Below are positions 245 through 5,425 of a DNA stretch of 7,502 nt, one piece after another (within the stretch, counting starts at the first letter, position 1; every line of letters starts with the position of its first letter). The stretch spans positions 1 to 7,502 of the forward strand of contig CAMLOC010000159.1 in assembly GCA_946481465.1 (NCBI GenBank), written 5' to 3'. Made by a program: the position numbers and the translations under genes. This DNA comes from an uncultured Shinella sp. (GTDB lineage: Bacteria > Pseudomonadota > Alphaproteobacteria > Rhizobiales > Rhizobiaceae). The notes beneath the pieces were generated by a model. That model was given only the letters and a program-made list of their open reading frames with translations. It did not search any database and was not told the origin of the DNA.

Positions 245-249
245 CCGCC

Positions 250-305
250 GCGGTAGACGGCTACCGCCGGAGCGCATCCGGTCACGACCGCGGGGACGGC
301 CTCGC
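250..305 (+). promoter_or_regulatory. Guanidine-II riboswitch (mini-ykkC) upstream of the SMR gene
   Basis: Two hairpins carry identical ACGG tetraloops. P1 is GCGGTAG-ACGG-CTACCGC (250-267), with seven Watson-Crick pairs. P2 is GCGGGG-ACGG-CCTCGC (290-305), with six pairs including one G-U. A 22-nt linker separates them. Two stem-loops with ACGR tetraloops just upstream of a ribosome binding site are the published definition of mini-ykkC / guanidine-II RNA. In that class each loop binds guanidinium and the two loops dock on each other. The class commonly precedes sugE-type SMR genes, as here. A sequence able to pair with the Shine-Dalgarno begins inside the 3' arm of P2, suggesting ligand-dependent translational activation. 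Loops, stems, spacing and gene context are read directly from the sequence. Ligand binding is inferred. Confidence 0.85.
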
Positions 306-322
306 TCCTTTCTGATGGAGTG
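303..322 (+). promoter_or_regulatory. Possible Shine-Dalgarno-sequestering helix of the guanidine riboswitch
   Basis: CGCTCC (303-308) can pair with GGAGTG (317-322; one G-U pair) across an 8-nt loop, burying the GGAG Shine-Dalgarno (317-320). Three of the six pairing bases (303-305) are also the 3' arm of P2, so the two helices exclude each other. The simple reading is that guanidine stabilises P2, breaks this helix and frees the ribosome binding site. This is inference from base pairing only. Confidence 0.45.
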
Positions 323-326
323 GGCA

Positions 327-611
327 ATGCCCTGGATCTACCTCACCCTCGCCGGCCTGTTCGAAATCGGCTGGGCAATCGGCCTCAAATATACCGATGG
401 CTTCACGAAGCCCCTGCCGACGGTGCTCACCGCCGGCTCGATGGTCGTTTCCATCGTGCTCCTCGGCCTTGCCGTGAAGACGCTGCCGATCGGCACGGTC
501 GGCACGGTTATGCTCGGCATCTTCCTCTTCGCCGAGCCGGTGACCGCCATGCGCATGGGCTGCATCGCCCTCATCGTCACCGGCATCCTCGGCCTGAAAT
601 TCGCCGCTTAA
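327..611 (+). CDS. sugE: SMR-family SugE/Gdx guanidinium exporter with an internal 10-residue deletion in TM3
   Basis: This 94-residue membrane protein belongs to the SMR family, SugE/Gdx branch. These proteins work as antiparallel dimers in the inner membrane and exchange guanidinium (or small quaternary ammonium compounds) for protons. Glu13, Trp16 and Ser42, known substrate-site residues of Gdx proteins, are all present, as is the FEIGWAIGLKYT segment. After LPIGT (53-57) the family normally continues AYAVWTGIG(A/T)VGTV. Here it reads VGTV directly, so ten residues are missing, including the conserved Tyr59 and Trp62 and the glycine-rich part of helix 3. Usual length is about 104-105 residues. 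The reading frame is intact and helix 4 (MGCIALIVTGILGLKFAA) is normal. The ATG at 327 is chosen because GGAG (317-320) lies 6 bases upstream and the protein then begins MPWIYL like its relatives. In-frame starts at 180 and 315 would run through the promoter and riboswitch or lack a ribosome binding site. Family is certain; whether this copy transports is doubtful. Confidence 0.88.
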   Translation: MPWIYLTLAGLFEIGWAIGLKYTDGFTKPLPTVLTAGSMVVSIVLLGLAVKTLPIGTVGTVMLGIFLFAEPVTAMRMGCIALIVTGILGLKFAA

Positions 612-1127: not shown

Positions 1128-1781
1128 TCAGTCGCAGCTGATCGCCTGCGTGACGACGCAGGGCGCGATCTTCTTCGCCGAGCCTTCCGGCAGCGCGCGC
1201 GAGCGCACGTTCAGCGCCGCCTCGGTGGGAATGACCAGCGGGCGTTTCTGCCCGCCCGAACGGGTCTCGACGGTTGCCGTGGTCGCCGGGCGGCGCTTGC
1301 CGCCGGCATATTTACGGCCCTTGCCGGGGCGCTTGCCATGAAAAACCTTGCCGGCCGCGACCGGTGCGAGATGATAGGCGAGCGCCACGCGCTTGGCGAT
1401 GGCGTCGCCGAGCGCGGCTTCGCGGCCCTTCTGCCTGGGCGGCATGAAGCTGTTGATCGTCAGCGTCCGGCTCGACGACGTGCCGGGGCCGCTCAGCGTG
1501 ACCGTCACCCGTGCGGTGCTCTGGCCGTCGCGGCCTTCCCTGACGCCGGCAACCCGCACGTCCATCGTCGCACGGTCGATCGCCACCGCCCGGCGCGTCG
1601 CCCTGGCGGAGCGCTTCAGGTGCTCGCCGGTGCGCTTCAGCACCGTGGCGGATGCGCTGTCGTCGCCGCTGACGACGATCTTGCGGATGTCGCGGACCGG
1701 AAAGGCCTCGTCGGCGCCGGCGGCAAGGGGGGTGGAGAACAGAAGGCTGGCGGAAAGAAGCGTGCGAACAAGGAACTGCAT
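1128..1781 (-). CDS. Exported protein of unknown function with a basic, low-complexity segment
   Basis: I do not recognise the family. The 217-residue product begins with a clear Sec signal peptide: MQFLVR, a hydrophobic stretch to about residue 20, then an AGA-D cleavage site after residue 23. A periplasmic location is therefore likely. Residues 25-140 look like a folded alpha/beta region (VRDIRKIVVSGDD, MDVRVAGVREG, ARVTVTLSGPG). Residues 145-182 are rich in Lys, Arg and Gly. The C-terminus has two cysteines (208 and 216), which could form a disulfide. The ATG at 1781 is chosen because it places the signal peptide at the N-terminus. An in-frame ATG at 1820 would put 13 polar residues ahead of it. 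No good Shine-Dalgarno precedes either start. The gene follows ATP12 by 67 bases on the same strand. Clear coding character, unknown role. Confidence 0.7.
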   Translation of the reverse strand: MQFLVRTLLSASLLFSTPLAAGADEAFPVRDIRKIVVSGDDSASATVLKRTGEHLKRSARATRRAVAIDRATMDVRVAGVREGRDGQSTARVTVTLSGPGTSSSRTLTINSFMPPRQKGREAALGDAIAKRVALAYHLAPVAAGKVFHGKRPGKGRKYAGGKRRPATTATVETRSGGQKRPLVIPTEAALNVRSRALPEGSAKKIAPCVVTQAISCD

Positions 1782-5251: not shown

Positions 5252-5425
5252 GCTGGGAGAAGCCGGCCGTCCGAACACGGGCATGGCCGGTGCCGAAGGA
5301 GCAACCGCCCCGGAAACTCTCAGGCAAAAGGACCAGCAAGGTGCCGTCGGAACTCTGGAGAGAAGCGTTTTTCGAGCGCTCGCCGAAGGGATAACAATCT
5401 CAGGCGAAGGGACAGAGGGGGCTCA
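5252..5425 (+). promoter_or_regulatory. Tandem glycine riboswitch (gcvT RNA)
   Basis: Two glycine aptamers lie in tandem. Aptamer 1 has GGGAGA (5255-5260), a long P3 stem (CCGGCC pairing with GGCCGG), the core GCCGAAGGAGCAA (5292-5304) and GGAAACTCTCAGGCAAAAGG (5312-5331). ACTCTGGAGAG (5352-5362) links to aptamer 2. That aptamer has its own P3 (AGCG pairing with CGCT), CGCCGAAGGGATAA (5381-5394), and ATCTCAGGCGAAGGGACAGA (5397-5416) followed by GGGG. These are the conserved cores of the glycine riboswitch, which in most bacteria turns on glycine cleavage genes when glycine is plentiful. Its position between promoter and gcvT fits exactly. Ends are approximate. Confidence 0.96.

Follow-up and report, generated by a model that had tools for sequence, protein, structure and literature searches.

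A probable recent loss-of-function deletion in helix 3 of a Shinella-like Gdx/SugE guanidinium exporter

The DNA analysed here (the window, 7,502 nucleotides in all) is a stretch of Shinella-like chromosome that carries gdx/sugE, a gene for a guanidinium exporter of the small multidrug resistance (SMR) family, in which ten codons of the third transmembrane helix (TM3) are missing. In our opinion, this gene is best explained as a recent loss-of-function allele of gdx, confined to a single lineage of a Shinella-like bacterium (probability approximately 0.7).

A ten-residue gap in helix 3

The open reading frame (327–608 plus stop) encodes LPIGT-VGTVMLGIFLF, and its product has 94 residues versus 104 in Shinella. 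The missing residues, AYAIWTGIGT, are positions 58–67 of the full-length Shinella protein P0001. The product matches the Pfam model PF00893 (Small multidrug resistance) over residues 1–83 with 58.1 bits, against a cut-off of 23.7, and is the sole SMR-model match among the ten window proteins scanned. Seventeen close homologues were aligned, 15 of them with 104 or 108 residues and two with 101; relative to the former, the window protein lacks ten residues of helix 3, while outside the gap it is 86–98% identical to the 17. MAFFT sets the gap at 55–64, which is equivalent to 58–67 because IGT is present at both ends. Glu13, Trp16 and Ser42, the residues of the Gdx/SugE subtype, are kept and are invariant in the alignment. 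The aligned sequence is without Tyr59 and Trp62, which lie inside the missing segment, and without one glycine of the GIG motif, and the Gly64-Ile-Gly66 hinge of full-length TM3 is missing; Tyr59, Trp62 and the Gly-Ile-Gly hinge are invariant in all 62 aligned relatives. These results bear out the first-pass annotation of this stretch, which had assigned the gene to the SugE/Gdx family, counted exactly ten missing residues, listed Tyr59 and Trp62 among them and noted that Glu13, Trp16 and Ser42 remain.

Judged from the sequences, the gap is not a product of chance or of gene calling, since identity outside it is high and the neighbouring genes are free of frameshifts. The gene is the Gdx/SugE orthologue found at the same place in Shinella. 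Full-length orthologues, which the first-pass annotation had proposed to look for, are present in 21 of 21 Shinella genomes, each with a match over 103–104 residues of P0001 and zero internal stops; as read by script, gdx has 104 codons in 19 of these genomes, and in the other two a start at an ATG further upstream brings it to 108.

Repeats at the ends of the missing segment

L001–L003 have two copies of ATCGGCAC, one at codons 55–57 and one at codons 65–67, with a spacing of exactly 30 nt; in L004 and L005, the same codons hold ATCGGCACGG twice, at exactly the same spacing. Removal of one repeat copy and the stretch between from the relatives' sequence gives the window sequence. Thus, a short-repeat deletion explains the in-frame loss, as had been suggested for ATCGGCAC-type repeats from the window alone. 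Codon-order shuffles reach a 10-bp repeat at spacing 30 in 4 of 500 cases for L004 and 0 of 500 for L005. The tandem CGGCACGGT pair, which the first-pass annotation noted as remaining at the junction, is indeed present, but was rejected as a scar: L004 and L005, which are full-length, have the same pair.

P0062 and P0063 are Shinella-like Gdx proteins of 101 residues from environmental contigs and differ from each other by one residue. In both, helix 3 is short of one of the two GTV units in GTVGTV, perhaps through loss of one 9-bp tandem unit. The loss is again in frame and affects the same repeat-rich part of TM3 as in the window gene, but it takes only three residues and spares Tyr59 and Trp62. 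Together with the window gene, they suggest that in-frame losses arise readily in the repeated IGT/GTV code of helix 3. The three-residue pattern occurs in none of the 21 Shinella genomes.

Predicted consequences for the protein

The window protein shares its descent with Gdx-Clo and the other SugE/Gdx exporters (SMR family, PF00893; structures 6wk5 and 8vxu), a subtype characterised by an antiparallel homodimer and proton-coupled export of guanidinium. It has TM1, TM2, TM4, Glu13, Trp16, Lys21 and Ser42 in common with them and, unlike them, is without residues 58–67, including Tyr59, Trp62 and the GIG hinge; full-length P0001 aligns to Gdx-Clo over residues 1–102. In the AlphaFold model of the short protein, TM3 spans residues 56–68, i.e., 13 residues, versus 55–78 in the full-length control. 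VIA-align superposes the short model on the Gdx-Clo structure over residues 1–54 only (TM1 and TM2), whereas the full-length control superposes throughout. In published work on Gdx-Clo, the W62F and Y59F mutants show no guanidinium exchange. The published accounts describe the glycine motif as the hinge of helix 3 and place dimerisation mainly in TM4; hence the first-pass annotation was right that the motif is lost, but not in giving it a role at the dimer core.

QacEdelta1, a common natural altered SMR protein, is named in the abstract of PMC8448097. Its gene and the window gene are alike in that both are natural alterations of an SMR gene in which the reading frame has stayed open. The change in QacEdelta1, which is widespread, lies at the C-terminus, whereas the window gene shows a loss in mid-TM3 and is a single case. 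At the level of titles and the first lines of abstracts, the literature yielded no natural SMR protein with a TM3 deletion and no Shinella with guanidine riboswitches.

The leader and the remaining codons

A leader resembling the guanidine-II (mini-ykkC) riboswitch precedes the window gene (Table 1), as it does the Shinella gdx gene. Rfam model RF01068 scores 18.8 bits at 249–304, where the gathering score of 32 is not reached, and is absent from the whole-window scan list at E up to 1; a long linker with a hairpin of its own may be the cause of the low score. The two hairpins characteristic of guanidine-II riboswitches are found at 19 loci; the loop of the first is ACGG or ACGA, and that of the second is ACGG. 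Across 17 pairs and 19 loci, 97.8% of cells are standard pairs, versus 34–56% in slid controls. Both sides have changed in 8 of the 17 pairs, counts that are inflated by related sequences: three of these pairs lie in the first hairpin and five in the middle one, and the second hairpin hardly varies. All five pairs of the middle hairpin have changed on both sides across the window and L001–L018. The minimum-energy fold of 240–330 alone is a structure other than the two-hairpin form (z −1.83); in that fold the GGAG site is paired, as might be the case in an "off" state. Neither the leader nor the ribosome-binding site of the window shows visible damage, in keeping with a recent loss.

The remaining 94 codons have zero private residues relative to L001–L013 and to 19 of the 21 full-length genes of the genus (L141 and L143 were excluded, since the script started them at an in-frame ATG further upstream, giving 108 codons). 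The ratio of nonsynonymous to synonymous rates (dN/dS) is 0.070 versus L001 and 0.060 versus L002, and 0.06–0.37 across the ten loci compared; L001 against its own comparison loci gives similar values (0.06–0.30). Relative to L001–L005, private synonymous changes occur in six codons (17, 24, 27, 45, 71 and 103), and private residues are absent. At codon 33 (GTG, Val), the residue is shared only with L002 and may hide one replacement on the window branch. There are an estimated 2.7 or so nonsynonymous sites for each synonymous one, so that neutrality along the entire branch would have brought about 16 replacements; zero or one is seen. By this arithmetic, a neutral phase would have taken up no more than approximately the final fifth to third of the branch. 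Therefore, either the deletion happened recently or selection still acts on the gene.

Occurrence of the short form and of other SMR genes

The same deletion was not found among the best 120 of at least 7963 full-length homologue matches, nor among the best 120 of 260 matches to residues 38–77. Beyond the 17 aligned sequences, the listed homologues were mostly judged by length, and odd-length matches were read individually, except P0172–P0174 (134 residues); P0186, P0162, P0168, P0181, P0175, P0190 and P0188 all retain the TM3 segment. The first-pass annotation had allowed that many related genomes might share the short form, which would speak for a functional variant. A degenerate junction pattern, matched exactly, occurs in 0 of 394 Rhizobiaceae genomes, a sample of a larger group that includes only part of the Shinella genomes.

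A second SMR gene is present elsewhere in all 13 genomes examined (11 Shinella, one Mycoplana and one Rhizobium), and is of the Qac type, with Gly in the place of Trp16. Each of the 21 Shinella genomes has a single match with more than 50% identity to P0001. Since Shinella usually has one Gdx, its loss in the window strain may be unbuffered. Two genomes, G001 (C23) and G002 (C32), have neighbouring pairs of further SMR genes approximately 400 bp apart (start to start), like paired SMR exporters.

Genomic context

In its gdx protein, the window is closest to the loci of Shinella granuli and S. yambaruensis. The best DNA match over the whole of 240–1070 among the 21 Shinella genomes is 84% (G001); G003 reaches 89%, but over about half of this segment. 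Seven records of the plasmid collection match, led by Shinella sp. PSBB067 with 86% over 56% of the query. Six neighbours were compared (the fghA end, doxX, a 217-residue gene, atp12, had and rluC; gcvT and gcvH were outside this comparison), and none has a frameshift. Versus L001 and L002, the comparison shows a single gap, one residue long, which falls in the 217-residue gene; versus L004 and L005, this gene has 4–5 gap positions. The product of this gene (1128–1781, minus strand) has no Pfam match; 40 relatives were found, 54–99% identical, and those with organism names are all from Shinella. The window genes include gcvT, gcvH and probably the start of gcvP, named from its position and sequence, after a glycine riboswitch, as well as pseudouridine synthase, HAD hydrolase, ATP12 and DoxX genes. 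The glycine riboswitch (5253–5419) matches RF03166 with 61.9 bits, under the gathering score of 110.

Table 1. Features of the gdx/sugE locus in the window
Feature	Position	Strand	Remarks
Guanidine-II (mini-ykkC)-like leader	249..305	+	Hairpins 251–266 and 290–305 (ACGG loops); further hairpin 267–281 between
GGAG, probable ribosome-binding site	317..320	+	6 nt before ATG; invariant in 19 aligned leaders
gdx/sugE, shortened guanidinium exporter	327..611	+	94 residues plus stop; PF00893, 58.1 bits; 98% identity to P0001 outside the gap
Deletion junction	489..497	+	One ATCGGCAC(G) copy left; 30 bp including one repeat copy missing versus full-length relatives
Tandem CGGCACGGT x2	491..508	+	Native to the TM3 code of full-length L004 and L005

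Discussion

The mutation is a natural one, but the event is of an ordinary kind. As reconstructed from the relatives, two ATCGGCAC(GG) copies with a spacing of 30 nt would have recombined, or replication would have slipped between them, with the in-frame loss of 30 bp. The product would keep TM1, TM2 and TM4 around a TM3 predicted at approximately 13 residues, devoid of Tyr59, Trp62 and the Gly-Ile-Gly hinge, and, to judge from the published point mutants and the models, would most likely be unable to form or swing the antiparallel dimer or to exchange guanidinium. The event was probably recent on this branch, since neither the leader nor the remaining 94 codons show decay. Of the two outcomes envisaged in the first-pass annotation, a dead protein or an altered variant, the sequence, the models and the published mutants favour the former, and a recent loss.

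Several observations weigh against a recent, inactivating deletion or weaken the case for it. Full-length genes, too, most often have zero private residues (11 of 19), and for that reason this count shows absence of decay rather than special constraint; moreover, an unbroken frame and a low dN/dS are equally expected of a functional short form. Foldseek aligns the short model to Gdx-Clo over 104 columns, at a root-mean-square deviation (rmsd) of 8.8–9.4 (for 8vxu_B, a poor match with a TM-score of 0.57 and rmsd 9.4). A weak structural match is no proof of a different fold, a monomer model says little on function, and the absence of other folds in the structure comparisons was not counted as evidence. 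Finally, codon-order shuffles of L001–L003 reach an 8-bp repeat at spacing 30 in 26–32 of 500 cases, and such repeats at some in-frame spacing of 3–60 are common in shuffles (49–380 of 500). Because of this, the repeat is only moderately special, and is a good explanation, not proof.

An artefact or minority variant, in which PCR, sequencing or assembly dropped the 30 bp or the contig reflects a minor allele of a mixed sample, is unlikely. The failure to find a second sequence with the deletion in the homologue and genome searches described above agrees with it, and the only near-identical neighbour protein found (P0121, 99%) lies on an 874-bp contig of the source "ena"; short repeats, besides, can also make a polymerase slip in vitro. 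Yet the deletion is exactly in frame and at a repeat, the six neighbours show no frameshift and one single-residue gap versus L001 and L002, and repeats of 8–10 bp are far below the usual k-mer length of assembly. The chance that a redundant gdx elsewhere in the genome freed this copy to break is somewhat smaller still. This account is compatible with a recent loss and concerns why the loss was tolerated; it draws on the second SMR gene seen in 13 of 13 genomes, but that gene is of the Qac type, and a single close match to P0001 is the rule in Shinella.

It is very unlikely that the gene encodes a functional shortened exporter that dimerises despite its short TM3, perhaps has a changed substrate or another SMR protein as its partner, and is kept by selection. 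Every remaining residue is found in relatives, dN/dS is low versus the nearest loci, and the leader is conserved, all of which would suit such a protein. Nevertheless, the hinge and the two residues that are needed for exchange in Gdx-Clo have been lost, the model gives helix 3 a length of 13 residues, an SMR model matches just one of the ten window proteins scanned, and another lineage with this form was seen neither among the best 120 of the 260 matches to the helix 3 region, nor in the 394 genomes, nor in the 21 Shinella genomes.

A related and likewise very unlikely idea is that the 94-residue protein works as an SMR protein with a TM3 of approximately 13 residues and no Tyr59, Trp62 or hinge, e.g., by letting guanidinium leak or by pairing with a full-length or Qac-type protein. 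If this were true, half of helix 3 would be dispensable. If the recent loss-of-function allele is real, it is, besides being one broken allele in one lineage, a clean natural deletion of the hinge and part of the substrate site that leaves the leader and the remaining codons intact, and the dispensability of guanidinium export in some habitats would therefore become testable.
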